From the NCBI GenBank assembly GCA_007116145.1, contig SKJB01000103.1:1-61303 (forward strand): DNA of 61,303 nucleotides. Reading direction: 5' to 3'. Shown one piece after another: positions 4,103 to 52,163 of the stretch (within the stretch, counting starts at the first letter, position 1; each line of letters starts with the position of its first letter). A program made the position numbers and the translations under genes. This DNA comes from Limnochordia bacterium. Lineage in GTDB: Bacteria > Bacillota > Limnochordia > Darwinibacteriales > DTU012. The notes beneath the pieces are model-generated. The model had not been told where the DNA came from. It ran no database searches and worked only from the letters and a program-made list of their open reading frames with translations.

Positions 4103-6166
4103 TTGCTTAACTCATCCATGCGAAGGATAAACCAATATAGTGATGTCTATGTAATCTTCGGCGTAGTGATGATTATTGTTATCATGATTTTACCACTACC
4201 ACCATTTATGTTAGACATTCTGCTAGCAGTCAATATTAGCCTAGCCCTACTTATTCTTTTGCTGACAATGAATGTTAGCGAAGCGTTAGAGATTTCAATC
4301 TTTCCGTCATTATTATTGATTACTACTTTATTTCGCTTAGCCTTAAATATATCTTCCACTCGACTTATTCTGCTGCGCGGAGTGGCAGGTCAAATCATCG
4401 TTGCATTTGGAAACTTTGTCGTGGGTGGAAACTATGTCGTGGGTTTCGTCATCTTTCTTATTTTGGTCATTATTCAATTTATTGTTATTACAAAGGGATC
4501 AGAACGAGTTGCAGAGGTTGCTGCACGCTTTACCTTGGATGCAATGCCCGGTAAACAGATGAGTATTGATGCCGACTTGAATTCTGGTTTGATTACAGAA
4601 GATGAAGCACGTAATAAACGACGTACTATTGAACGAGAAGCTGACTTTTATGGCTCTATGGATGGTGCATCAAAGTTTGTGAAGGGTGATGCAATTGCTG
4701 GTATTATTATTACCCTGATTAATATTGTCGGTGGTCTAGCGGTGGGTATGGGCCAAAGAGGATTAGCTTTTGACCAAGCGGTGAGTCGTTATACCTTGTT
4801 AACTGTCGGTGATGGTTTAGTATCTCAGATTCCTGCATTACTAATAAGTACAGCTACAGGTATTATTATTACTCGCGCTGCATCAGAAGGTAATCTTGGT
4901 CAAGATTTTAATCGGCAATTATTTAGTAATTCTAAGGTACTAGGAATCGCTGCTGTTGTTCTGTTTGCATTTGGTTTTGTACCTGGGCTTCCTTTTTTTC
5001 CGTTTTTTCTTCTTGGGACATTTGCGGCCTTAACCGTCTTTTTTAATCGACAGGCCCAACGAGACATTTCCGAACAAGCGGAAATCCAGCACGAGCAAGA
5101 GGAAATGGAAGAGAGTAAAAAACCAGAAAATGTATTATCATTACTGCAAGTTGACCAGGTGGAGTTAGAAATCGGTTATAGTTTAATTCCCTTAGTGGAT
5201 ACAGATCAAGGGGGCGATATGCTAGAGCGCATCACAATGATTCGCCGTCAGTGTGCTCTTGAGTTAGGTATGGTTGTTCCAATTATCCGTATTCGTGATA
5301 ATTTACAATTAAGTCCTAATGGATATGCGATAAAACTCAAAGGGATTGAAGTCGGCGAAGGCGAATTAATGGTTAGTCATTACTTAGCTATGGATTCTGG
5401 TGGTGTGAGTAAACAGGTAACTGGTATTGCTACAAAAGAACCAGCGTTTGGTCTTGATGCTCTTTGGGTTGACGAAGAGACTCGAGAAAAGGCCGAAATG
5501 GCAGGCTATACAGTGGTGGACCCTCCGAGTGTATTAGCCACGCATCTAACCGAAATTATTCGAGCACATGCCCATGAATTATTGGGTCGTCAAGAGGTAA
5601 AGACCTTGCTTGACGGACTAAAGGAGGAGTATTCAGCGGTAGTTACAGAGTTGGTGCCTGATTTGCTCTCAATCGGAGAAGTGCAAAAAGTGCTACAGAA
5701 TCTCTTGCGTGAAGGATTACCTATCCGAAACTTGCTAACAATTCTCGAAACCTTAGCGGACTCTGCTACTGTGGCTAAAGACATTGACTATCTAACAGAG
5801 TATGTTCGTGAAGCTCTCGCAAGACAGATATCACGATTGTATATTGAAAATAAGGTTTTATCAATTATCACTCTAGACCAAGGATGGGAAGAATCAATTG
5901 CTTCAGGCATTGATCATTCTGATCGAGGTATAACAATTTCGCTAGATCCACGTTTGCTGCAAAAACTTTTCTATGAAATAAATCAGTGCTTAGAGGAGAA
6001 TGCGCTACCCTATCCAATCATCTTAGTCTCACCAACGATTCGAATGGCCCTGAAGCGACTTACTGAGCGCTCAATACCTAAGTTAATTGTGTTATCCTAT
6101 AATGAAATAGTCCCGGATATCCAAGTTCAAGCCATGGGGACGGTGAAATGGTCTAATGAAGGTTAA
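4103..6166 (+). CDS. flhA: Flagellar export protein FlhA
   Basis: A 687-residue protein matching the usual FlhA length. It has an N-terminal membrane half of about eight helices with the FHIPEP-family core (TTLFRLALNISSTRLILL, then VVGFVIFLILVIIQFIVITK, and the loop RVAEVAARFTLDAMPGKQMS). A large cytoplasmic domain from about residue 340 docks export substrates and chaperones. FlhA is the proton-driven component of the export engine. The start is TTG at 4103 behind AGGAGGAATATAAC. The end overlaps flhF by 11 bases. Confidence 0.97.
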   Translation: MLNSSMRRINQYSDVYVIFGVVMIIVIMILPLPPFMLDILLAVNISLALLILLLTMNVSEALEISIFPSLLLITTLFRLALNISSTRLILLRGVAGQIIVAFGNFVVGGNYVVGFVIFLILVIIQFIVITKGSERVAEVAARFTLDAMPGKQMSIDADLNSGLITEDEARNKRRTIEREADFYGSMDGASKFVKGDAIAGIIITLINIVGGLAVGMGQRGLAFDQAVSRYTLLTVGDGLVSQIPALLISTATGIIITRAASEGNLGQDFNRQLFSNSKVLGIAAVVLFAFGFVPGLPFFPFFLLGTFAALTVFFNRQAQRDISEQAEIQHEQEEMEESKKPENVLSLLQVDQVELEIGYSLIPLVDTDQGGDMLERITMIRRQCALELGMVVPIIRIRDNLQLSPNGYAIKLKGIEVGEGELMVSHYLAMDSGGVSKQVTGIATKEPAFGLDALWVDEETREKAEMAGYTVVDPPSVLATHLTEIIRAHAHELLGRQEVKTLLDGLKEEYSAVVTELVPDLLSIGEVQKVLQNLLREGLPIRNLLTILETLADSATVAKDIDYLTEYVREALARQISRLYIENKVLSIITLDQGWEESIASGIDHSDRGITISLDPRLLQKLFYEINQCLEENALPYPIILVSPTIRMALKRLTERSIPKLIVLSYNEIVPDIQVQAMGTVKWSNEG

Positions 6167-7256
6167 AAAATTTACAGGTGTTACCTTGAATCAAGCTGTA
6201 TCCCAATTGAAGAATGAATTTGGGAGAGATGCTGTAATTTTACATACAAAACGAATTCGCCGCGGTGGTATCTTAGGCTTATTTGGTCGGATTCAGTTTG
6301 AGGTTATTGGTGCCATTGATCCAAATGTGCAAAAAGAGGAGGCACCCGTCGAGATTCATCGTGCCAAAGAAAAGAAACCGTCGAGTTCTGGCATTTTTAC
6401 TACGCTTCCAAAAAAGGAATCACCACAGCAAGTTAAAGTGAATGTAGAACAGAACTCGTGGCCTGAAACAGTACAAGATTTATTTCAGTTATTGGTCAAT
6501 CGCGATATTGATCGTGATACGGCGAAGAAACTAATTAAGTGTGTTTTGCAGGCAGTCCCTAAAGAAAAATGGGACGATCGAGCACAAGTACACAAGCAGT
6601 TATTTCATGTGGTTACCAATGAAATACGCACGATTGAGCCTTGGGAGTTAGTTAGTGGACAAAAGGTTGTTGTGCTAGTTGGCCCCACAGGTGTGGGCAA
6701 AACGACAACGATTGCTAAGCTTGCAGCGAATTATGGGTTAATTGCCAATAAGCGAGTTGGACTTATCACAATCGATACCTATCGTATGGGTGCTGTTGAT
6801 CAATTGAAGACCTACTCTGATATAATTGGAGTTCCACTAACGGTGGCTTATGACTATGCGCAACTAAAAGAAGCAGTGAGTAAGATGAACGATCGTGATC
6901 TGATACTGATCGATACAGCAGGTCGAAGCCATCAGAACAAAACGCAGATGACGGAATTAGAAGCTCTGTTAGACGACCTTAATGCTGAGACTCATTTAGT
7001 TTTGAGTGCTTGTACCAAGGAGAAGGATCTGAGAAGCATTATAAAAGCATATTCCGATATGCAACTCGATCGCCTAATTATTACAAAATTAGACGAAACA
7101 ACAGGTTACGGTATTTTTCTGCAAGCTCCGACTCTTGCCAAAGTGCCTATTGCTTTTATGACTACCGGTCAGAGCGTTCCTGAGGACATTGAAGTGGCTG
7201 ATGTGCTTAAAATGACTAGCTTAGTTCTGGGGGATACCAATGAGAGATCAAGCTGA
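6156..7256 (+). CDS. flhF: SRP-type GTPase FlhF, flagellar placement
   Basis: A 366-residue SIMIBI GTPase. The N-terminus (VKKFTGVTLNQAVSQLKNEF, then GRDAVILHTKRI) is the FlhF B domain. The GTPase core has the P-loop GPTGVGKT at residues 176-183, the DTYRMGAVDQLKTYSDII region, DTAGR and TKLDE. FlhF recruits early flagellar components to the assembly site and forms a pair with FlhG. It overlaps both flhA (11 bases) and flhG (17 bases), showing strong translational coupling. Confidence 0.96.
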   Translation: MKVKKFTGVTLNQAVSQLKNEFGRDAVILHTKRIRRGGILGLFGRIQFEVIGAIDPNVQKEEAPVEIHRAKEKKPSSSGIFTTLPKKESPQQVKVNVEQNSWPETVQDLFQLLVNRDIDRDTAKKLIKCVLQAVPKEKWDDRAQVHKQLFHVVTNEIRTIEPWELVSGQKVVVLVGPTGVGKTTTIAKLAANYGLIANKRVGLITIDTYRMGAVDQLKTYSDIIGVPLTVAYDYAQLKEAVSKMNDRDLILIDTAGRSHQNKTQMTELEALLDDLNAETHLVLSACTKEKDLRSIIKAYSDMQLDRLIITKLDETTGYGIFLQAPTLAKVPIAFMTTGQSVPEDIEVADVLKMTSLVLGDTNERSS

Positions 7257-8100
7257 TTCTTTAAGACAACTAGTAAAACAACGTGTAACTCCAGCCCCGC
7301 GCACCATAGCTGTAACCAGTGGCAAGGGGGGCGTTGGAAAAACAAATATGTCGGTCAACTTGGCCTTATGTTTAGTACAGATGGGAAAAAGAGTCGCACT
7401 GCTAGATGCTGATCTTGGTTTAGCAAATGCAGATATCGTGCTTGGAGTGTATCCTGATTTTAACCTTGGCCATGTTTTACGAGGTGAAAAAGCAATTGAA
7501 GAAATCATTCTTGAGGGTCCACTTGGATTACAGGTTCTAGGCGGAGGTTCTGGAGTCTATGATCTTGCAAATATCAACGAATGGCACCTCGAGCGATTTA
7601 TCCGTTCCATGGAACATCTTGATCGAGAAATAGATTTTTTGATTATTGATACCGGAGCAGGTATTCATCGTAATGTTTTAAGCTTTGTTTTAGCGGTTGA
7701 AGAAGTAATTGTGGTGACTACACCAGAGCCGACAAGTATTACTGATGCGTATGGTATGATCAAAACAATTATCCAAAAAAATCCACATAGTCAGATAACA
7801 GTTCTAGTTAATATGGTTCAGACTCCGAAAGAAGGAGAGCTTGTGTGGGAAAAACTCAATACTGTTGTGCAAGAATTTCTCAGCAAAGAGTTAATTTATG
7901 GTGGGTATGTTTTAAACGATGTAAATGTAGCTAAAAGCGTCCGGGACCAACAACCATTTATCCTAGCGTATCCAGTCTGTTCGGCTACTCGCTCCATTGA
8001 ACGCGTCGCTCACTCGATGCTAGGAATAGAAAAAATATTACCAAAAAGAGGTATTCGTAACCTCTTTAGTAAAATGTATAACTTAACTACACCAAACTAA
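7240..8100 (+). CDS. flhG: MinD-like ATPase FlhG (YlxH)
   Basis: A 286-residue deviant-Walker ATPase with SGKGGVGKTNMSVNLAL at residues 27-43, LLDADLGLANADIVLG (Walker A' and switch region), and DTGAGI followed by TTPEPTSITDAY. The short basic N-terminus (RDQADSLRQLVKQR) matches the FlhF-activating helix with its DQAxxLR pattern. FlhG stimulates FlhF GTP hydrolysis and controls flagellar number and position. The C-terminal amphipathic part is consistent with membrane association. Confidence 0.95.
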   Translation: MRDQADSLRQLVKQRVTPAPRTIAVTSGKGGVGKTNMSVNLALCLVQMGKRVALLDADLGLANADIVLGVYPDFNLGHVLRGEKAIEEIILEGPLGLQVLGGGSGVYDLANINEWHLERFIRSMEHLDREIDFLIIDTGAGIHRNVLSFVLAVEEVIVVTTPEPTSITDAYGMIKTIIQKNPHSQITVLVNMVQTPKEGELVWEKLNTVVQEFLSKELIYGGYVLNDVNVAKSVRDQQPFILAYPVCSATRSIERVAHSMLGIEKILPKRGIRNLFSKMYNLTTPN

Positions 8101-10355: not shown

Positions 10356-11117
10356 TTGGCCGTTATTTCCATGAAACAATTATTAGAGGCTGGCGTTCAC
10401 TTTGGGCATCAAACACGGCGATGGAATCCGAAAATGGCGGAGTATATCTTCACAGAACGGAACGGTATTTATATCATCGATTTACAAAAAACCGTCCGTA
10501 AAGTAGAGGAATCCTATAGTTTTATTCGCAGTGTAGTAGGCGATGGTAAATCAATCTTATTTGTTGGGACAAAGAAGCAAGCACAGGATACCATTAAGGA
10601 AGAAGCCGAACGTTGTGGAATGTATTACGTTAACCAACGCTGGTTAGGTGGTATGTTGACGAATTTCAAAACTATCAATACACGTATTACCCGTTTACAA
10701 CAATTGGAGAAAATGAAGGAAGATGGTTCTTTTGACCTCTTACCCAAAAAAGAGGTTCTTCAATTAGAGAAACAGCTAGAAAAACTTAACCGTTTCCTTG
10801 GTGGAATTCGCGAAATGCAAAAGTTGCCAGGTGCTTTATTTGTAGTAGATCCACGCAAAGAGCGTATAGCTGTAGCAGAAGCAAGGAAGTTAGGTATTCC
10901 GATTGTATCGATTGTGGATACTAACTGTGATCCAGATGAAGCAGACTATATTATCCCAGGTAACGACGATGCTATTCGTGCTGTTAAGCTTCTTGTTACT
11001 ACTATGGCTAATGCAGTTGTGGAAGCAAAAGAAGGCGAGATTAGTAAGATGGAAGCAAAAGCAGCTGTTGCCGTCGAAGAAGAAGCAAAAACTGCTGATG
11101 AAGTCGTTGAAGCGTAG
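10356..11117 (+). CDS. rpsB: 30S ribosomal protein S2
   Basis: A 253-residue S2 protein with family hallmarks: [20 protein letters not shown] at the start, then [35 protein letters not shown] and [20 protein letters not shown]. The TTG at 10356 is chosen over the GTG at 10347 because the GTG lies inside the AGGAGG ribosome-binding site, while the TTG is 8 bases beyond it and gives the normal S2 N-terminus (M-A-V-I-S-M-K). The acidic Ala/Glu-rich tail from about residue 225 is common in this phylum. Confidence 0.97.
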
Positions 11118-11126
11118 TATAGACAC

Positions 11127-11175
11127 GAGGGGCTAAGTGAGGGAGTTTATGCTCTTGTTTAAGCCCTCTCTTTTT
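11127..11175 (+). terminator. Terminator or attenuator between rpsB and tsf
   Basis: GAGGGGCTAA (11127-11136) can pair with TTAAGCCCTCTC (11159-11170), with small bulges, and TTTTTG follows. An internal terminator that lowers tsf relative to rpsB is plausible. Confidence 0.5.
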
Positions 11176-11204
11176 GTGAAATCATATATGAAGGAGGGAG
11201 ATAA

Positions 11205-11858
11205 ATGGCCACCATTACCGCAAGCATGGTTAAAGAACTTCGCGAAAAAACAGGCGCTGGCATGATGGACTGTAAGAAAGCATTAAACGCGAAAGACGGA
11301 AATATCACTGAGGCTATTGCATATCTTCGTGAAAAAGGATTGTCGGCTGCAGCAAAAAAATCTGGTCGTGTTGCTTCAGAAGGATTAGTTGAAGCCTATA
11401 TCCATATGGGAGGTCGCATTGGTGTTTTGCTCGAAGTCAATTGCGAGACTGATTTTGTGACTAAGACGGAGGAGTTTCAACAGTTTTGTAAGGATGTAGC
11501 CATGCATATCGCAGCTGCTCGTCCTGAGTTTGTGTCCCGTGATCAAGTGCCTGAGAGTGTACTCGAGTCCGAACGTCAGATCTATCGATCTGCAGCGCTT
11601 AATGAGGGGAAACCAGAGAAAATTGTCGATAAAATTGTCGAAGGTCGTCTAGACAAGTACTTAGCTGAGATCAGTTTGTTAGATCAACCTTTTGTTAAAG
11701 ATCCTGACGTCACCATATCACAGCTACTAACAACAAAAATAGCGAAGATTGGTGAAAACATTTCCATACGTCGTTTTACAAGATATGAACGTGGAGAGGG
11801 TCTTGAAAAACGCCAAGAGGATTTCGCTGCTGAAGTTATGTCCCAGATCAAGCAGTAG
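11205..11858 (+). CDS. tsf: Elongation factor Ts
   Basis: A 217-residue EF-Ts, the short form usual in Gram-positive and other thermophile-like lineages. The N-terminal UBA-like domain contains [19 protein letters not shown], followed by [20 protein letters not shown] and [19 protein letters not shown], which contact EF-Tu. It regenerates EF-Tu-GTP during elongation. AGGAGGGAG precedes the ATG and a clear terminator follows the stop. Confidence 0.97.
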
Positions 11859-42966: not shown

Positions 42967-43076
42967 AAGAATAATAAGTGATCATTTCACTGAAAAAACC
43001 ACCAGCTTATTATTGGGTTGTTGGAACAAAAATAAGGGATTCCCAATGGAATCATGTGAAAGAAGGGAGAATAATT

Positions 43077-43412
43077 GTGTATTGTAGCGAAATAGTCGGA
43101 CAAGCATTAGTTATAACACTTGAAGGTGAATTCGATCTTCATACAGCTCCGCCGTTTAAAGAACATATCGATACCCAACTACATGGCAAACCTGAAATTA
43201 TCAATTTAATCTTTATTATGTCCAAATTAACGTTTATTGATAGTTCAGGCTTAGGTGTAATTCTAGGCCGCTACCGGATTATTCAGGAACGAGGCGGTCA
43301 GCTGATTTTTGCTGCACCAAGTCCACAGGTAAAACGTATTCTTGAACTGTCAGGAATGCAGAAAATATCCAAATTTTCTAACTCAGCTCGGGAAGCTCTT
43401 GAGTTAATATAG
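43077..43412 (+). CDS. spoIIAA: Anti-sigma F factor antagonist SpoIIAA
   Basis: A 111-residue STAS-domain protein. The conserved Ser pair at residues 56-57 sits in KLTFIDSSGLGVILGRYR and includes the Ser phosphorylated by SpoIIAB. When dephosphorylated by SpoIIE, it releases SigF in the forespore. The GTG at 43077 is 6 bases after AAGGGAGA and gives the normal N-terminus; longer in-frame starts would fall in the leader behind the SigH promoter. Confidence 0.93.
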   Translation: MYCSEIVGQALVITLEGEFDLHTAPPFKEHIDTQLHGKPEIINLIFIMSKLTFIDSSGLGVILGRYRIIQERGGQLIFAAPSPQVKRILELSGMQKISKFSNSAREALELI

Positions 43413-43426
43413 GGAGGGAATAGTGT

Positions 43427-43855
43427 ATGGATGCAAACTGGATGAAATTAGAGTTTCCAAGCGAAAGTGTCAACGTACAATTTGCCCGTACAACGGTTGC
43501 TATCTTTGCTTCGCAACTTGATTTTACTTTGGAAGAAATTGAAGAGATAAAGGTCGCTGTATCAGAAGCTGTTTCGAACTCTGTCATTCATGGTTATAGT
43601 GCAAGTCATGGAAATGTAATCATGAAAGTAAAATACACTCCAACACAATTTACTGTTAGTGTAGAAGATTTTGGTCGCGGAATTTCGGATATAGTCCAAG
43701 CTCAAGAATCCGGATATACTACCATACCAGAAGAACGGATGGGAATCGGATTGTATTTTATTCAAGAATATATGGATGAGGTCTCGCTCCACTCCGAAGT
43801 GGGCAAAGGTACAAAAATCGTAATGGTCAAAACTGTAAAACCGATACAAGGTTAG
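43427..43855 (+). CDS. spoIIAB: Anti-sigma F factor / serine kinase SpoIIAB
   Basis: A 142-residue GHKL-fold kinase. The N box is EIKVAVSEAVSNSVIHGY, the G1 region SVEDFGRGISD, and the lid and G2 region EERMGIGLYFIQEYMDEVSL. It binds and silences SigF and phosphorylates SpoIIAA. AGGGAGGG precedes the ATG. It sits between spoIIAA (14-base gap) and sigF (9-base gap), the classic tricistronic order. Confidence 0.95.
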   Translation: MDANWMKLEFPSESVNVQFARTTVAIFASQLDFTLEEIEEIKVAVSEAVSNSVIHGYSASHGNVIMKVKYTPTQFTVSVEDFGRGISDIVQAQESGYTTIPEERMGIGLYFIQEYMDEVSLHSEVGKGTKIVMVKTVKPIQG

Positions 43856-43864
43856 GTGGGCTAC

Positions 43865-44608
43865 ATGAATGGTTGGAATATTGATATACCAGACCACCCG
43901 TTGTTATCAGACGGTGAAACCAAAGAATTATTGCAAGCAGCCCATGCTGGTGATACCCAGGCTCGTAGTCGTCTGATTGAATCGAATCTACGGTTAGTGT
44001 TAAGTATCATTAACCGGTTTCAAAATCGTGGCTTTGAAATGGAGGATCTATTTCAAGTTGGATCGATTGGGCTCGTAAAATCAATTGATCAATTTGATTT
44101 AAGTTACCAGGTCCGGTTTTCTACGTATGCCGTTCCTAAGATAATCGGAGAAATCAAACGCTATATCCGTGAGTCTAGCACCTTACATATTTCACGTTCT
44201 TTACGAGAGCTTGCAAGTAAAGCAATTGAAGCAAAGGATCGATTGACTGACAGTTTAGGACGGGTTCCAACGATCAATGAGATTGCGTCTAAGCTTGGAG
44301 TCGAAAGAGAAGACATAGTCAGTGCGCTAGACTCAGTATCGCCGATCCATTCCCTACAACAAGTAGTTTACGAGGATGACGGACACCCAATTATGCTTGA
44401 GGATCAATTAGCGGCTAGCGCAGATAATATGTCCTTTTATCTAAGAGACATATTATCAAGTTTAGATTTCGATGAGAGACGCATTGTTTTACTCCGTTAT
44501 TTTGCAGAAAATAGCCAAACTCAGGTGGCTACTCTTCTAGGAATATCTCAAGCCCAAGTCTCTAGAATAGAAAAACGTGTTTTAGCACAGATACGAAAAG
44601 AGTTATAG
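43865..44608 (+). CDS. sigF: RNA polymerase sigma-F factor, forespore-specific
   Basis: A 247-residue sigma-70 family protein of the F/G/B group. Region 2: LIESNLRLVLSIINRFQNRG, DLFQVGSIGLVKSIDQFD, VRFSTYAVPKIIGEIKRYIR; then LHISRSLRELASKAIEAKD and region 4 with LSSLDFDERRIVLLRYFAEN and GISQAQVSRIEKRVL. Adjacent spoIIAA and spoIIAB fix it as SigF and not SigG. ATG at 43865 is preferred to an in-frame GTG at 43856 that overlaps the ribosome-binding site. Confidence 0.95.
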   Translation: MNGWNIDIPDHPLLSDGETKELLQAAHAGDTQARSRLIESNLRLVLSIINRFQNRGFEMEDLFQVGSIGLVKSIDQFDLSYQVRFSTYAVPKIIGEIKRYIRESSTLHISRSLRELASKAIEAKDRLTDSLGRVPTINEIASKLGVEREDIVSALDSVSPIHSLQQVVYEDDGHPIMLEDQLAASADNMSFYLRDILSSLDFDERRIVLLRYFAENSQTQVATLLGISQAQVSRIEKRVLAQIRKEL

Positions 44609-46171: not shown

Positions 46172-46307
46172 CCTCATATTATAGAAGATAGATACGAACT
46201 TTTTCTAGAGTGACAATAAGCTTTTTAAAAGCGTGCAAGGAATTTGGTTAGTAGTGGCGAATTTATACCTATAGACTTGTGTGCATTATAACATTGGAGG
46301 GGTATTT

Positions 46308-46922
46308 ATGCTTGAAATTCTTGTAAGTGGTGGTCCGGTAATGATTCCTTTATTTCTATGTTCGGTGATTGCGGTGGCAGTATCATTGGAAAGAGTGTGG
46401 TATTTAGTTCGTTCACGAGTCGACACCGACGATTTAATGGAGGATATTAAACTTTCTCTTGGACAAGGTAAAGTATTAGAAGCCATGCAATTAGCAAAGA
46501 AGTCTAAAGGTCCTGTTGCTGCGTTGTTATCAGCGGGGATTTCCTATTACGATCACGACAAGGAAGATATCAAAGAACGACTAGAAGAAGTTGGCAAGGA
46601 AGAAATTTACAAGATGGAAAAGCGTATGTCTCTACTGGATACTATCGTTACCATATCACCTCTGCTGGGTTTATTAGGGACTGTAACTGGAATTATTAAT
46701 AGTTTTAATGTCTTAGGTGCTCTAGAGGGTATCGATCAACCAGCAGCATTAAGCATAGGGATAGCAGAAGCGCTGATTACCACTGCGACAGGGCTCATTA
46801 TAGCTATTCCTACAATGGCTTTATATTCTTACTTAAGCAGCTTAATTGACCGAAATATAGCCGAAATGTCGAAACGTTCAACAGAATTAATTAATGTTTT
46901 GGGGTCAAGAGGTGAGTATTAA
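46308..46922 (+). CDS. exbB: ExbB/TolQ-type proton channel protein
   Basis: A 204-residue MotA/TolQ/ExbB protein with three membrane segments: near residues 8-25 (PVMIPLFLCSVIAVAVSLER), 108-130 (LDTIVTISPLLGLLGTVTGI) and 150-178 (IAEALITTATGLIIAIPTMA). The conserved LLGLLGTVTGI and IAEALITTATGLI patches are those of ExbB/TolQ; flagellar MotA is longer with four helices. With ExbD it forms the proton-driven motor that energises TonB. AGGGGTATTT precedes the ATG at 46308. Confidence 0.93.
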   Translation: MLEILVSGGPVMIPLFLCSVIAVAVSLERVWYLVRSRVDTDDLMEDIKLSLGQGKVLEAMQLAKKSKGPVAALLSAGISYYDHDKEDIKERLEEVGKEEIYKMEKRMSLLDTIVTISPLLGLLGTVTGIINSFNVLGALEGIDQPAALSIGIAEALITTATGLIIAIPTMALYSYLSSLIDRNIAEMSKRSTELINVLGSRGEY

Positions 46923-47326
46923 TGCAATTTGAGCGAACACTGAAACGAAAACCACGTCCGGATATGATGCCGATGATTGACGTTGTATTTTTTTTGCTTG
47001 TATTTTTTATGCTTTTTAGTACGTTAAAAGCAACCCCTTTAGGTATGGATCTGGAATTGGCTAAAGCTGTTAGTGGTTCTGCTGTCCAGAGTAAGCATTT
47101 TGAAGTTAGTATAAATCGAGATGGCATGATGTATGTTGACGGAAAAATGGTTACTGGACCCGAATTACAAGCACAGCTATCAATTGCCTTACAAGAAAAT
47201 CCTGACCTGTTTGTCCTATTTAACAACGATCGAAGACTTTATTGGGAGGATATTGCAAAAGCGCTTGATCACGTACGTGCAGTCGGTGCCTATCGATATG
47301 CTTTTGCTGTAGAACCAGAGATCTAG
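46922..47326 (+). CDS. exbD: ExbD/TolR-type protein
   Basis: A 134-residue bitopic protein. A basic N-terminus (RTLKRKPRPDMMPMID) leads to one membrane helix containing the essential Asp (MIDVVFFLLVFFMLFST), followed by a periplasmic domain with VSINRDGMMYVDGKMVTGPE. This is the complete ExbD layout. It overlaps the exbB stop by one base. Together with the tonB gene 191 bases on, it points to energised transport at an outer membrane; Tol-type or motility uses of similar pairs are the alternative. Confidence 0.93.
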   Translation: MQFERTLKRKPRPDMMPMIDVVFFLLVFFMLFSTLKATPLGMDLELAKAVSGSAVQSKHFEVSINRDGMMYVDGKMVTGPELQAQLSIALQENPDLFVLFNNDRRLYWEDIAKALDHVRAVGAYRYAFAVEPEI

Positions 47327-47517
47327 GAACTTGTTCGGTAATGTACTTACAGACGCACATTACAATGTACCTGAGCTTTTCACTATCGTGAAAAGATAGA
47401 GGTGTACTTCTTCGTTTCGCAATCTCGAAAAGTTATGTTTCCGATAGAGGGATTTGCATAATTCCTCGCTTCGATGACTTTTCGAGTTTACTCCTAGACA
47501 AAGGTGGCGAGTTTTTG
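47327..47517 (+). other. Intergenic region with several inverted repeats between exbD and tonB
   Basis: No gene is visible in these 191 bases. Three inverted repeats are present: GTAATGT/ACATTAC (47338-47344 with 47357-47363), CTTTTCAC/GTGAAAAG (47376-47383 with 47388-47395, loop of four) and CTCGAAAAGT/ACTTTTCGAG (47424-47433 with 47477-47486). They could fold a leader RNA for tonB or be regulator sites. I see no good promoter hexamers. Confidence 0.6.
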
Positions 47518-48606
47518 ATGATGTATATGCAGGATGGCGAAGATCATTCTATAAATAGATTCATATTTATATCTTTAGTTATACATGCCATTCTTTTTTG
47601 GACATATCCGCAGTGGAGTTCGCTGTTACTAAAGGAAGCTCCTGGATTGGAAAAGAGTGGAGTCATACAGTTTATTCAAGTTGAAACGTCCACAAGTCGG
47701 CAGATATCTCCGATAACCGATCGCTCATCACACACGTCGGCTCCGAAAGTAACAGAATCCCGGCCCATCCCGGAACAACCAAAACCTCTTCCTGCTGCCC
47801 AGGTTGTCCCAGAGCAACAGGAAGAACCGGTAATTCCAAGTCCGCAACTACGGCCCGATCTAACGCCAGAACCGAAACCTGAAGTGACTGTAAAACCCGA
47901 ACTACAGCCTGTGGTACAACCTCAACCGAAACCAAAGCCGCTTCAAAGCTCGGAAACGGTACAAGCAGAGGTGATAACTAGCGAGAGGGCAACAGAAACG
48001 ATTGTCATTGAGCCAAAACCGGAACCGATACCTAAACCAGAGCCAATACCAGAGCCAATACCAGAGCCAATACCAGAGCCAATACCTGAACCGATACCTG
48101 AACCGATACCTGAACCAGAGCCGATACCTGAACCAGAACCTCTACCTGTTCAAACAGAATCTGGTTCTAGTTCAGCCGAAGCATTAGTCACAGGAAGTGA
48201 TGCAGATACAGAAGGAGCACAAATAGATTCAGGAATGGGTGAAATTGAAGAATCAATACCAGCGCCACCACCACTACCAAGTGGTCGTTCGTTGCATGGT
48301 GGCGGAACGAGCCCAATTTACCCAAAAAATGCAGAAAACGAAGGGATAGAAGGGGTAGTACAGCTTGAAGTTATTGTCTCCACGACAGGAACAAAAATTG
48401 ATGTATACATTACTGGTTCCTCTGGCAACATCGGATTAGATCGCCAAGCTGAGCAAACGATACACCATCAATGGGAATTCAGAGGGGCAGCCCAAGACTA
48501 TGTTTTGCAGCTTGAGGTAGAGTTTGCTCGAAAAGTCGAAGATGGAGTAACTAGCTTCGAGGTTGATGTCCACTTCGGCGAAGTCCGTTGGTTAGAGTCA
48601 GAGTAA
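47518..48606 (+). CDS. tonB: TonB energy-transducing protein with long Pro/Glu-rich spacer
   Basis: A 362-residue protein. A short N-terminus leads to one membrane segment (about residues 15-33, FIFISLVIHAILFWTYPQW, with the His common to TonB helices). A proline-rich stretch follows (about 90-215), with PEPIPEP repeats that can span a periplasm. The C-terminal TonB domain begins near residue 275 (SPIYPKNAENEGIEGVVQLE, then VSTTGTKIDVYITGSSG and HHQWEF). With exbB/exbD it would power TonB-dependent outer-membrane receptors; none is encoded in the window. ATG at 47518. Confidence 0.9.
   Translation: MMYMQDGEDHSINRFIFISLVIHAILFWTYPQWSSLLLKEAPGLEKSGVIQFIQVETSTSRQISPITDRSSHTSAPKVTESRPIPEQPKPLPAAQVVPEQQEEPVIPSPQLRPDLTPEPKPEVTVKPELQPVVQPQPKPKPLQSSETVQAEVITSERATETIVIEPKPEPIPKPEPIPEPIPEPIPEPIPEPIPEPIPEPEPIPEPEPLPVQTESGSSSAEALVTGSDADTEGAQIDSGMGEIEESIPAPPPLPSGRSLHGGGTSPIYPKNAENEGIEGVVQLEVIVSTTGTKIDVYITGSSGNIGLDRQAEQTIHHQWEFRGAAQDYVLQLEVEFARKVEDGVTSFEVDVHFGEVRWLESE
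48027..48146 (+). repeat. Tandem 12-bp repeats in tonB encoding Pro-Glu-Pro-Ile
   Basis: About nine tandem 12-base units. The first block uses the form CCAGAGCCAATA and the second the form CCTGAACCGATA, so synonymous variants are grouped. This indicates growth of the spacer by slippage or unequal exchange in at least two phases. Copy number may differ between strains. Confidence 0.85.
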
Positions 48607-48627
48607 AACATGTAAAGGGGGGTATTG

Positions 48628-50655
48628 ATGTTTAGAAGTAGAGAACTTTGGATCGTTGCTTTAATATTTTCGCTAATATCTCTTAGTAGTAGTGTATTAG
48701 CTGTATCTTCAAACCTAGAAATAGCGAATGAATACATTCGTATTGTTGTCAATACTAGTGAGAATAACATGGGTCGTTTCTCAGTGGGTACCACTGGAGG
48801 AGATCCTGACCGCACTGGAGATGAGAATAAGCACTTAATTTATGGGGGAAATGAGCCCTGGACATCGTTTACCACGATTCGAATTGGAAATCAAAACTGG
48901 ATTTATGGGCAACCAACCAATCGACGTGCAGGCCGCGACGGGCAATACGGTAGCATGATTAGTGCGCCTACTATTATTGATAATACCATTGTTAGTGCAT
49001 GGCAGACAGGACCTATCGAAATTACCCAGCGGTTAGGCTTTGCCCGTAGTACAACAACTGGGTTGCAGGATTCAGCTAGAATCGAATATGAACTTCATAA
49101 CACCGATACGGTTACTCATTTTGTCGGATTACGGATAATGCTAGATACCATGTTAGGCCAAAATGACGGTGCACCATTTCGTGTTAATGATCAAGGATTA
49201 GTTACCGATAGTGTTTTCTATTCACACGAAATGCCGGAATTTTGGCAGGCCTTTGATTCAATCTCCAATCCTCAAGTAATGGCCCAGGGTACACTGCGAG
49301 GAGGAGAGGTCTCCACACCGGATCGAGTCTATTTTACTAACTGGGGAAGTTTAGCCGATTATTTATGGAACTTCGATTTCCAACCTGGACGTGACTATAC
49401 TCGTAAAGGCGAATTTGAACTTGACAGTGCTATTGCCCTGTTTTGGGATCCAACACCATTACAACCAGGTGAATCGCGAAATTATGTAGCTTACTATGGA
49501 TTAGGAGGCGTGACAGTTGCCCCCGGTGATCTATCACTCGGTGTTACATCACCCGCTCAGATTACAGCAGATGCTACACATCGACAGAGTTTCCCCATTA
49601 TCGCGTATATCCAGAATACTGGTAAAGGTGAAGCAAGGGATGTTATAGCGAGTATAAAGCTACCCGTTGGACTGATACTGCTTGAAGGAAATCCAACTAG
49701 AAACCTTGGAAACCTCGACGTAGGGGAGACGCTACAAACGAGTTGGCAAGTAATCCCAACAGGTGATTTTAGTGGCACTCTAACCTACGAAGTTGAAGTT
49801 GAAGCCATCAACAGCGAGTCCAATCGAGTTAAACGCGACATTGAAATTGTAACACCAGCTAAGTTGCAGATCGATCTCAGGGGTCCGTTTGCGTTGTCCA
49901 TAGTCAATGAACGGTTAACGCCTGTACCGATAGAGATTACTGCTATAATTCGAAATATCGGAGGATCGCCCGCTCACAGATTAAAACTTACCTTAGATCA
50001 TCCTATTGGCTTAACATTAGCAGCCGGAGAGCGTTCTCAAAAGTATACCGGTTCTCTCAACGCTGATGAAGAAATAAGTATCAATTGGTACTTAGAACCT
50101 ACTGGAGTTGCTGGCAACCTTCCTTATTCGTTAAGAGTACGCTCAAGTACGGGAGAGCAGGTCGTCAATAACTTTGTATTGCTCCCTAACTTAAGTGGTA
50201 AAGTCTGGTTTGATGCGCCCATTACTTACAGAGAGAATACGATTCATCCAGGTGAGTATTTCTCGGTTACCCTATGGGCAACAAATATCCGCAACTTTCA
50301 AAAGGCCACATTGGAACTAGGATTTAACCCAGACGTGGTAGACATCGTTGGGCACTCGTTAGATATAAGCCCAGGTACATTATTTATTGATGATAGTATC
50401 CAACCTGCCCGGCCCCTGGCTTGGCAGAGACCTATTGTTGATAATCGTCAAGGAACGGTGAGTGGAATAATCGGGGATCGGGGCGAAGATAAAGTGTTGG
50501 CACTAGCCTATGGTTCATTGATAACAATCCACTTTCGGGCTAAGGATGTTGGTAACGCCGAACTCACTATTAACAACCTCAAACTTTATGACAGCTGGGG
50601 TCAGATTATTAATGCACAGACATCAGATAGAGAAATAGTGGTTTATCCACGATAA
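48628..50655 (+). CDS. Exported multi-domain beta-sandwich protein with cohesin-like C-terminus
   Basis: A 675-residue protein with a signal peptide (residues about 1-26, WIVALIFSLISLSSSVLA). The first 280 residues form an unassigned beta-rich domain with GRFSVGTTGGDPDRTGDENK and YNVAYYGLGG-like ending. Then come two CARDB-type immunoglobulin-like repeats (about 285-405 and 405-520; for example IAYIQNTGKGEARDVIASIK and EITAIIRNIGGSPAHRLKLT). The last 150 residues resemble a cohesin or surface-layer-associated fold (ATLELGFNPDVVDIVGHSLD, YGSLITIHFRAKDVGNAELT). No membrane anchor or sorting signal is visible. Located 21 bases after tonB and 12 before the SLH gene. A role in outer-surface or periplasmic assembly is inferred. 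Confidence 0.75.
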   Translation: MFRSRELWIVALIFSLISLSSSVLAVSSNLEIANEYIRIVVNTSENNMGRFSVGTTGGDPDRTGDENKHLIYGGNEPWTSFTTIRIGNQNWIYGQPTNRRAGRDGQYGSMISAPTIIDNTIVSAWQTGPIEITQRLGFARSTTTGLQDSARIEYELHNTDTVTHFVGLRIMLDTMLGQNDGAPFRVNDQGLVTDSVFYSHEMPEFWQAFDSISNPQVMAQGTLRGGEVSTPDRVYFTNWGSLADYLWNFDFQPGRDYTRKGEFELDSAIALFWDPTPLQPGESRNYVAYYGLGGVTVAPGDLSLGVTSPAQITADATHRQSFPIIAYIQNTGKGEARDVIASIKLPVGLILLEGNPTRNLGNLDVGETLQTSWQVIPTGDFSGTLTYEVEVEAINSESNRVKRDIEIVTPAKLQIDLRGPFALSIVNERLTPVPIEITAIIRNIGGSPAHRLKLTLDHPIGLTLAAGERSQKYTGSLNADEEISINWYLEPTGVAGNLPYSLRVRSSTGEQVVNNFVLLPNLSGKVWFDAPITYRENTIHPGEYFSVTLWATNIRNFQKATLELGFNPDVVDIVGHSLDISPGTLFIDDSIQPARPLAWQRPIVDNRQGTVSGIIGDRGEDKVLALAYGSLITIHFRAKDVGNAELTINNLKLYDSWGQIINAQTSDREIVVYPR

Positions 50656-50667
50656 GGAGGACATGAT

Positions 50668-52062
50668 ATGACGTTAAATAAAGTTGTTAGTGGTTTTTTA
50701 GCCTTTGTACTTGTAATCTGTATGGGGGTACAGCCTGTTTCAGCTCGGTTAAACGATGTTCCTAATGATCATTGGGCTTATCAAGCCGTTGTGTCGTTAG
50801 TAAATAAAGGGTATTTAGCCGTTTTTGAAGACGGGACCTTTCAGGGTACCAGATCGGTTGATCGCTATACATTAGCGGTTACACTTGCTCGCATACTCGA
50901 CGAAATCGAAGCAGGTCGGGTCAGCGGTGTGAGAGATGATGCTACTTTACTGCGTGAGTTAACGACGGAATTCCGTGAAGAACTCGTGCAATGGTATGCA
51001 CAACAAGAGATAATCGAAGATAAGTTATCACACACGCAACGAGTGGGTGTCGCCACAGAAGATCGGTTAAATCGAATTGTCACTGCTCAAGTTGAGTTGC
51101 AAGAAGAAGTCACCAAACTTAAAGCAGACATCGTCAATGATGCAAGAACCATGCAAGCGCAACTCGAGACACATGGCAGCCTGTTAACGTCACATGATGC
51201 TGCTTTAGCATCACAAGAGGCTGCTTTAGCATCACAAGAGGCTGGTTTCGCAGAGCATGAAGCTCAGATCTCCAAACTACAATTAGCATTAGACGATGTG
51301 GATACACAACTCCGAACACAAGCGAAAACTATTGCAACCTTAGAGAATTGGACAGGTGAAAAAGGAGCTGTTTTGGCAGCTCTTACTCTTGAAGACACAC
51401 GAGTGAATAGATTAGTAAACCAACTTTTCGAGGAAATTGCTAGCATTACAGAGAAGATGGATGATGTTTCAAATGATATAGATGGCCGATTAGACGTGTT
51501 AGCAGAGCAGATAGATGAGCAAGGAATACAATTGGCTAGTGATAAGGATGATGACATTGCGAATTTGCAAGGTCAAATCACAAACCTATTGGGTGCACAA
51601 GCTCGTACAGATGGTGAAAGTGTACGCTCGTTTGAACAACTAAAAGTTCAGATCAGTAATTTGTCTACTAGAAATCAAGAAATAGAACAGGACCTTCAGA
51701 ACTTAGCTGTTCGTTTAGCGCGTGAAACGCAGACTCGTACAGAGGAATCTAACAAATTAGTCCGAGAACTAGCAGCAGAATTAAACTATATGCAGACTCA
51801 GATCCAAAATCTCGAAGCGCAGGTAGGTTTCTCAGATGAAGAATTAGCGATATTGATGAAGAGAATCACAGACGAAGTCTCTTCACAGATGAATGCAACA
51901 TTCCTTCGTGAACAGAGATTAGAACGACAGCTTAAAGAGCTCCAAGAGGATTTTGCTGGATTTAAAACTTCAATGGAAGAAGAGAATAAATCACTAAAAG
52001 GCACAGCAACTATTGCTATGGTTGCAGCTGGTCTTGCCATACTCGTTGGATTTATTCGCTAG
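50668..52062 (+). CDS. SLH-domain, coiled-coil outer-membrane tether (Omp-alpha-like)
   Basis: A 464-residue exported protein. Signal peptide about residues 1-26 (FLAFVLVICMGVQPVSA). One SLH domain at about 28-80 (DVPNDHWAYQAVVSLVNKGY, DGTFQGTRSVDRYTLAVTLA), the peptidoglycan/secondary-polymer binding type. Residues about 85-440 are almost entirely heptad-rich coiled coil with no Cys and few Pro. The extreme C-terminus is hydrophobic (GTATIAMVAAGLAILVGFI). This order equals Thermotoga Omp-alpha, a rod joining cell wall to outer membrane; OmpM has a beta-barrel instead, which is absent here. The match is architectural, not by alignment. Confidence 0.85.
   Translation: MTLNKVVSGFLAFVLVICMGVQPVSARLNDVPNDHWAYQAVVSLVNKGYLAVFEDGTFQGTRSVDRYTLAVTLARILDEIEAGRVSGVRDDATLLRELTTEFREELVQWYAQQEIIEDKLSHTQRVGVATEDRLNRIVTAQVELQEEVTKLKADIVNDARTMQAQLETHGSLLTSHDAALASQEAALASQEAGFAEHEAQISKLQLALDDVDTQLRTQAKTIATLENWTGEKGAVLAALTLEDTRVNRLVNQLFEEIASITEKMDDVSNDIDGRLDVLAEQIDEQGIQLASDKDDDIANLQGQITNLLGAQARTDGESVRSFEQLKVQISNLSTRNQEIEQDLQNLAVRLARETQTRTEESNKLVRELAAELNYMQTQIQNLEAQVGFSDEELAILMKRITDEVSSQMNATFLREQRLERQLKELQEDFAGFKTSMEEENKSLKGTATIAMVAAGLAILVGFIR
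51199..51246 (+). repeat. 21-bp tandem duplication encoding coiled-coil heptads
   Basis: The unit GCTGCTTTAGCATCACAAGAG occurs twice in tandem with partial copies on both sides. It encodes Ala-Ala-Leu-Ala-Ser-Gln-Glu, exactly one heptad, so the rod gains length without breaking register. Confidence 0.9.
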
Positions 52063-52075
52063 TTGGAATGAAAAG

Positions 52076-52163
52076 ACAGCTCACATTCACTAGGAACCTG
52101 TAATTTTAATATCGAACTTGATATTAAAGGGTAATCTAGTGAAAAATGTGAGCTGTTTTTTTT
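52076..52163 (+). terminator. Nested terminator after the SLH gene
   Basis: Outer stem ACAGCTCACATT (52076-52087) with AATGTGAGCTGT (52145-52156) is followed by eight T residues. A second tier CACTAG/CTAGTG and an inner perfect 9-bp hairpin (52105-52113 with 52120-52128) lie within. It ends the envelope module. Confidence 0.9.

Follow-up and report, generated by a model that had tools for sequence, protein, structure and literature searches.

We analysed a window of 61,303 nucleotides, which is the whole stretch of DNA presented above. It contains an operon of five genes on the forward strand. The first gene encodes an ExbB/TolQ-type motor subunit (46281..46922; Pfam MotA_ExbB, E 1.5e-32), whose upstream position is conserved. 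It is followed by an ExbD/TolR-type motor subunit (46922..47326; Pfam ExbD, E 1.7e-24) and by TonB (47515..48606), with an N-terminal membrane helix, a Pro/Glu-rich linker and a TonB_C domain (E 2.9e-11). The fourth gene (48625..50655) encodes an exported, all-beta protein of 676 amino acids, with gaps of 18 bp before it and 12 bp after it. The fifth and last gene (50668..52062) starts with ATG, immediately behind an AAGGAGG-type ribosome site, and encodes an SLH protein of 464 amino acids, hereafter the rod. The operon ends at a likely intrinsic terminator on the same strand (52070..52163), a long hairpin with eight U (-42.3 kcal/mol, z -8.9). A simple terminator scan, whose loop limit this hairpin exceeds, did not report it. 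In the window, the promoter scan gave 15 hits where 14.6 were expected, hence no excess, and Rfam gave zero matches.

A spoIIA/sigF-like cluster lies a few genes upstream of the operon (42978-44608), as it does in most loci of the class. The rod operon thus adjoins sporulation-type genes in two-membrane bacteria. Inside the TonB gene, repeats of 12 and 18 bp (48016-48148) encode the Pro-Glu-Pro-Ile linker, so the length of this linker may vary via repeat slippage.

The rod begins with a predicted signal peptide (residues ~1-26; 50668..50745), consisting of a hydrophobic helix at residues 4-19 in a signal-like sequence. A single SLH domain follows (residues 28-82; 50749..50913). The Pfam SLH model scores 15.7 bits, below its cut-off of 20.8. 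The NCBIfam model por_somb, for SLH porins, matches residues 26-136 with E 6e-11, likewise below cut-off. A rod-family profile of 50 relatives finds SlpA as its best match in the PDB (7zgx, 86.7 bits), together with the OmpM chains 8bys and 8bym. The sole convincing Foldseek match of the rod model is the crystal structure of the OmpM1 SLH domain (8bz2; 30% identity over 79 columns). The SLH domain and neck of the rod are homologous to those of OmpM/SlpA.

In SpaA, tryptophan, glycine and arginine positions bind the sugar and the pyruvate (PMC10628300). The rod retains these ligand positions as HW35-36, G60 and R66. Compared with OmpM, where the TRYE motif occurs in 34 of 36 proteins, the rods of Limnochordia mostly have DRYT. 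Their wall binding may therefore differ from that of OmpM.

The coiled coil comprises residues 89-443 (50932..51996) and includes the conserved neck LLRELTTEFREELV. The AlphaFold model, built with 50 sequences (pLDDT 81.5), shows the SLH helices, a helix at 89-278 and another at 290-463, with a break at 278-292 where pLDDT falls below 50. Proline is absent from residues 89-463. The hydrophobicity period is 3.52-3.56 residues. For the segments 292-443 and 89-443 the periodicity exceeds all 500 shuffles; for 89-278 it is only near the shuffle maximum (103 against 108, also 500 shuffles), and a weak heptad stretch is found at about residues 145-214. Within the gene, a 21-bp unit of seven codons occurs three times in tandem (51190..51252), which shows how a rod of this kind can lengthen in steps of whole heptads.

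The last element is a hydrophobic helix, GTATIAMVAAGLAILVGFI, at residues 446-463 (52003..52056), which ends one residue before the C-terminus. In the AlphaFold model the C-terminus carries no barrel, only a single helix through residue 463. Pfam gives no match to an OmpA-like wall-binding domain in the rod. The lipidated cysteine of a lipobox is preceded by a small residue. The rod has LVIC, with no small residue before Cys, and the relatives at L124, L134 and L135 have no Cys there. We rejected the rod as a lipoprotein homologue of Pal, since it has neither an OmpA domain nor a lipobox.

This anatomy agrees for the most part with the initial annotation, which had described an Omp-alpha-like rod in which a signal peptide and a single SLH domain precede some 350 residues of coil and a terminal hydrophobic helix, in the domain order of Thermotoga Omp-alpha. 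Uninterrupted heptads, as claimed there, was too strong a description because of the break and the weak stretch. The conserved TonB operon had been missed. The setting of the rod in this operon is new here, and the likely function shifts from a passive tether to one possibly worked by a motor, because the rod ends a conserved ExbB-ExbD-TonB operon.

The rod query matched in 60 of 60 related genomes. This is no measure of the rod alone, because OmpM paralogues match too. The retrieved rods range from 218 to 1480 amino acids, and the C-terminal helix is general across them. The mean hydropathy of the 17 C-terminal residues is at least 1.6 in 66 of 69 complete relatives from named loci and in 59 of 64 rods from other genomes, two sets that have genomes in common; all complete relatives in both reach 1.2. 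The helix is therefore not due to chance.

A signal peptide with a hydrophobic C-terminal helix is also the ordinary type I layout, and some of these helices are strongly hydrophobic. The helix might then sit in the cytoplasmic membrane, with the SLH domain reaching outward to the wall and the rod perhaps acting as a motor stator. The charges point the other way. Lysine and arginine average 2.97 in the 12 residues preceding the helix and 0.39 in the tail, with an excess before the helix in 93 of 97 rods and an excess after it in none of the 97. This is evidence against an inner-membrane anchor with a cytoplasmic tail. Nevertheless, a median tail of one residue after the nonpolar run leaves little for the charge rule to work with, and the argument is weakened because the coil upstream of the helix is charged anyway.

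Other SLH genes were seen in related genomes. At L125, a second rod-like SLH gene (4959-5651, +; 230 amino acids) stands directly 5' of ExbB, which makes two rods per operon. At L002, a protein of 383 amino acids (893-2044, +) has a Pfam SLH match and apparently further SLH-like repeats. Its gene adjoins a polA-like gene, and its kinship with the rod is limited to SLH.

The AlphaFold model of the 676-amino-acid protein has a pLDDT of 92.2. Residues ~28-300 form a supersandwich similar to galactose mutarotase and to the N-terminal domain of GH94 enzymes (VIA-align Z about 15-16). Two Ig-like domains of NEW3/CARDB type follow. Pfam NPCBM_assoc matches the protein above cut-off. Finally, residues 523-676 adopt a cohesin fold (VIA-align to 2xdh, Z 16.4, rmsd 1.9 over 127). 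These domain matches came from VIA-align; with the whole protein as query, Foldseek found nothing beyond integrin and ciliary matches of low coverage. Mutarotases use a histidine, and cohesin folds bind partners in cellulosomes. Across 57 sequences of the protein, most of the invariant residues fall within the first domain, and there is no histidine among the invariant ones. So, this domain is probably a binding and not a catalytic one.

The gene order ExbB-ExbD-TonB-beta protein-rod is common to Limnochordia, Halanaerobiales and Hydrogenispora. A profile of the 676-amino-acid protein, run against 84,980 named species genomes, found 232 encoding stretches, and we took the best 80 as loci. They include the Halanaerobiales Halonatronum, Halanaerobacter, Orenia, Halanaerobium and Candidatus Frackibacter. 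Among these best 80 of 232, 73 have the rod directly 3' of the beta protein, and 5 reach the contig end before it. In the remaining two, a run of N falls in the rod (L092), or the gene overlap is larger with the rod in place (L097). In the same loci, 69 have ExbB and ExbD upstream, and 11 reach the contig end before these genes; for TonB the counts are 72 and 4. Of 35 class loci, 34 likewise have the rod as the next gene, the exception being L061, where a run of N cuts the rod; in 4 of these 35 the TonB reading frame is absent or too divergent to be recognized. The median gap is 15-16.5 bp. The genes past the rod vary between orders, with che/fli here and others elsewhere.

The order of the five genes is strictly conserved, although order alone is no proof of a common mechanism. 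We found no recognised description of this operon in the literature; the evidence for novelty is weak, since the search left most subscription journals outside.

In Thermotogales, OmpA1 (Omp-alpha) is described with a signal peptide, an SLH domain, a long coiled coil and about 20 hydrophobic C-terminal residues (PMC3387000, PMC9388160). The rod has the same domain order and can be likened to it by this layout. It might then be a passive spacer of the Omp-alpha kind, placed in a TonB operon by mere co-expression of envelope genes. We hold this to be unlikely, because the five-gene order, with its short gaps, is kept across distant classes while the flanking genes change. The surroundings also differ. 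The Thermotogales order is given as secG-tyrS-ompA-ompB, with the porin adjacent (PMC3387000). The rod, in contrast, ends an ExbB-ExbD-TonB operon with no adjacent ompB porin, and an OmpM with its own SLH domain and barrel is encoded elsewhere.

A second point against a passive spacer is that the TonB of most genomes has no receptor. The genome of the window gives 0 matches to the Plug domain of TonB-dependent receptors (PF07715) and one TonB_C match, the one in the rod operon. In the class sample, Plug is present in 6 of 60 genomes, and all 6 carry two TonB_C proteins; only 1 of the 54 genomes without Plug does so (G041). In 20 genomes from the named loci, Plug is found in 7, all with two TonB_C proteins, and the other 13 have one TonB_C (12 genomes) or none (1 genome).

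For the phylum we used an even set of 299 genomes. The 676-amino-acid protein was counted as full-length at 600 bits or more, plus G313, where the gene lies on two contigs. By this count it is present in 64 genomes. Plug occurs in 23 of them, with a second TonB in 21, which lies within 8 kb of Plug in 19. The two exceptions are G215, with one TonB, and G164, with Plug at the cut-off. The other 41 lack Plug, and 0 of these 41 carry a TonB outside the operon. The association between Plug and a second TonB has a Fisher p of 6e-15, not corrected for ancestry. Pfam TonB_C was not seen beside the 676-amino-acid protein in 12 of the 64, presumably because of contig ends or divergence. The three receptor samples overlap; for example, G064 and G153 are one genome by coordinates.

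The operon is thus independent of TonB-dependent receptors. In three genomes (L152, L153 and L154; G040, G036 and G048), the receptor is encoded next to ExbB-like and TonB genes of its own, at a site separate from the rod operon.

Both the motor and the transducer truly belong to the ExbB/ExbD/TonB family, and the carbohydrate-enzyme-like domain of the beta protein could bind a substrate. TonB might therefore power a receptor that is divergent or has escaped detection, and the beta protein and the rod would then be import accessories. We consider this very improbable. Genomes with a receptor nearly always have a separate TonB adjoining it, and the majority of genomes with the full-length protein have no receptor detectable by Plug. 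Because most of these genomes are without a receptor for TonB, the motor may drive the tether instead.

In the phylum sample, the full-length protein is confined to genomes that encode Omp85. Strong Omp85 hits are found in 74 of the 299 genomes (G297, with E 6e-4, was counted as without), including all 64 of the 64 with the full-length protein, which occurs in 0 of the 225 others. The 10 genomes with Omp85 and no full-length protein belong to two families, f42 and f70. This confinement argues against an anchor in the inner membrane. Cultured Limnochordia possess an outer membrane (PMC11456536).

Weaker partial matches to the protein occur in 30 further genomes of this sample (94 in total at E 0.001). 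Several are in reading frames of 1200-2600 amino acids, up to 2599. The N-terminal half matches parts of proteins, often much larger ones, in genomes without strong Omp85 (G240, G237, G214, G217, G289, G090, G274 and others).

The genome of the window also encodes an OmpM of 813 amino acids (L068, 7969-10410, -), with an SLH domain, a coil, a barrel-like end and a terminal F. The rod had been proposed as a barrel-free tether standing in for OmpM. It has no barrel, but we rejected the replacement since a full, barrel-bearing OmpM is encoded in the same genome. The neighbours of the OmpM gene encode a protein of 494 amino acids with a weak SLH-like start and a barrel-like end (...FSIRF; 5858-7342, -), and one of 298 amino acids with a degenerate SLH-like start (10767-11663, -).

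We compared the length of the rod with that of OmpM within genomes. OmpM entries had to be complete, score above 40 for SLH and end in F, Y or W, and the longest per genome was kept. The boundary between coil and barrel was placed by a maximum-likelihood split, our second method after log-odds composition. From 41 class regions (including L068) and 20 phylum regions we obtained 31 usable pairs. Of the phylum regions, only 2 of 20 contained a complete OmpM. Those of G039 and G056, both of family f9, instead hold a second rod-like gene, for a short SLH protein with a C-terminal hydrophobic helix (L208, 5410-6636, +; L210, 7352-8410, -), and no long OmpM was found there. Four rods were left out: a run of N interrupts that of G019, those of G058 and G033 run into a contig end, and that of G028 is split. 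The OmpM boundary of G003 is clearly misplaced (376 against a rod of 224); this pair was kept except in the contrast runs that name it as dropped.

The coil of the rod follows that of OmpM. In the 31 genomes the coil lengths correlate with r 0.96 (slope 0.85), and the total lengths, which need no boundary, with r 0.94 (slope 1.09). The means of 14 families give r 0.99 for the coils, with a slope of 0.88 +- 0.04 and an intercept near zero; without the two longest, the 12 families left give r 0.93 and a slope of 0.90. Independent contrasts were computed on the tree of the 676-amino-acid protein for 22 of the 31 genomes, those with the gene for this protein retrieved. The 21 contrasts give r 0.96 for the coils. 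Without the two longest rods, r is 0.46 for the coils (p 0.04) and 0.70 for the totals (p 5e-4). The extreme pairs are 243 with 691, 837 with 1377 and 1447 with 1834 amino acids, rod and OmpM respectively. As straight coils, the two are predicted to rise together from about 20 to about 200 nm (199 at most). The rod of the window would measure ~52 nm, close to an earlier estimate of about 50 nm. The length matching supports the proposed tie between the length of the rod and the width of the periplasm.

The controls do not follow the rod in this way. Rod and TonB lengths correlate with r -0.31 (30 genomes). The 676-amino-acid protein gives a slope of 0.02 against the rod, and its contrasts correlate weakly (r 0.47). 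In the same sample, TonB has 255-456 amino acids (with an outlier of 702) against 344 to 1480 for the rods. The TonB lengths of G000, G042, G052 and G055 were read from lists of reading frames; the partial TonB of G001 and G009 and the split beta protein of G013 were left out of the controls.

OmpM spans from the wall to the outer membrane (PMC10628300). Since the length of the rod follows OmpM, it is simplest to assume that the rod bridges this gap too, with its helix in the outer membrane. The rod follows the OmpM coil and not TonB, which favours an outer-membrane anchor and makes a rod anchored in the inner membrane quite improbable. Length matching by itself requires no motor, and in this respect it would suit a passive spacer equally. 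TonB is anchored in the inner membrane and stays short. Its target is therefore to be expected close to the wall, either in the 676-amino-acid protein or at the SLH end of the rod.

We conclude that the rod probably links the cell wall with the outer membrane, in a rare branch of Firmicutes that has two membranes. That the TonB motor is linked to this tether is plausible, and we lean towards it. The two can be joined in one reading, somewhat favoured here, where the rod is both the tether between wall and outer membrane and the output end of an ExbB-ExbD-TonB machine driven by the proton motive force.

In other bacteria, Tol-Pal draws the outer membrane in at division by letting a tether detach and re-engage. 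The rod operon resembles it in having a motor pair, a transducer, a soluble beta-rich protein and a putative wall-binding tether, in the same gene order. However, where Pal has an OmpA domain and a lipid, this tether has an SLH domain and a helix as anchor, the beta protein is not TolB, and the motor and transducer belong to the Ton and not the Tol family. TolB_N is absent from the genome of the window and has 1 weak match among the 60 relatives. Pal was not found in this genome, whose sole OmpA domain is that of MotB, beside MotA. Tol-Pal is described as restricted to Gracilicutes, and, among the diderms of Firmicutes, Ton systems are placed only in Negativicutes, with no mention of SLH in that account (PMC12204202).

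A function like that of Tol-Pal is a good hypothesis for the operon, and we put it forward tentatively. The SLH domain would hold the wall, as its homology to OmpM and the retained ligand positions suggest. The coiled coil would span the gap to the outer membrane, which the length matching supports, and the C-terminal helix would sit in that membrane. ExbB, ExbD and TonB may energise and pull the mutarotase/Ig/cohesin protein. This protein would bind the rod near the SLH domain or the neck and control its grip on the wall, so that the rod detaches and re-engages. The motor would act at the wall end of the rod and not at the outer membrane, given a short TonB and rods of up to 1480 amino acids. 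The outcome may be, for example, that the outer membrane is drawn in at division.

In this mechanism the rod would work alongside OmpM, with OmpM as the fixed, barrel-anchored tether and the single-helix rod as the mobile one. The two share a homologous SLH domain and neck and an equal coil length within a genome, but the rod lacks the barrel. Pal is proposed to have gained its mobility when its ancestor, a barrel protein like OmpA, became a lipoprotein (PMC12204202). The rod and OmpM would parallel this origin and stand in the same relation as Pal and OmpA, the mobile tether descending from a barrel tether that is immobile.

The 2009 genome paper of Halothermothrix orenii reports that ExbB, ExbD and TonB are found together while a receptor is lacking, and suggests a different function for them (PMC2626281). 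By that description it shares the receptor-less ExbBD-TonB with the genomes studied here; the text of the paper that bears on these genes names neither of the two that follow here, and SLH does not appear in it. Antunes 2016 describes SLH proteins in the outer-membrane locus of Halanaerobiales, as likely distant OmpM (PMC5007114).

A conserved five-gene operon that ends in a putative wall-binding rod is one candidate answer to two questions. The first is by what means Terrabacteria that have two membranes but no Tol-Pal constrict and hold the outer one, and the second is the role of a TonB without a receptor, as noted for Halothermothrix in 2009. It is possible, if still doubtful, that two-membrane Firmicutes own an energised outer-membrane tether, in which a Ton motor and a beta protein load and unload a length-matched SLH rod, as a solution separate from Tol-Pal. 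The lengths of rod and OmpM, from about 20 to about 200 nm, make a sharp prediction of the width of the envelope in these bacteria.
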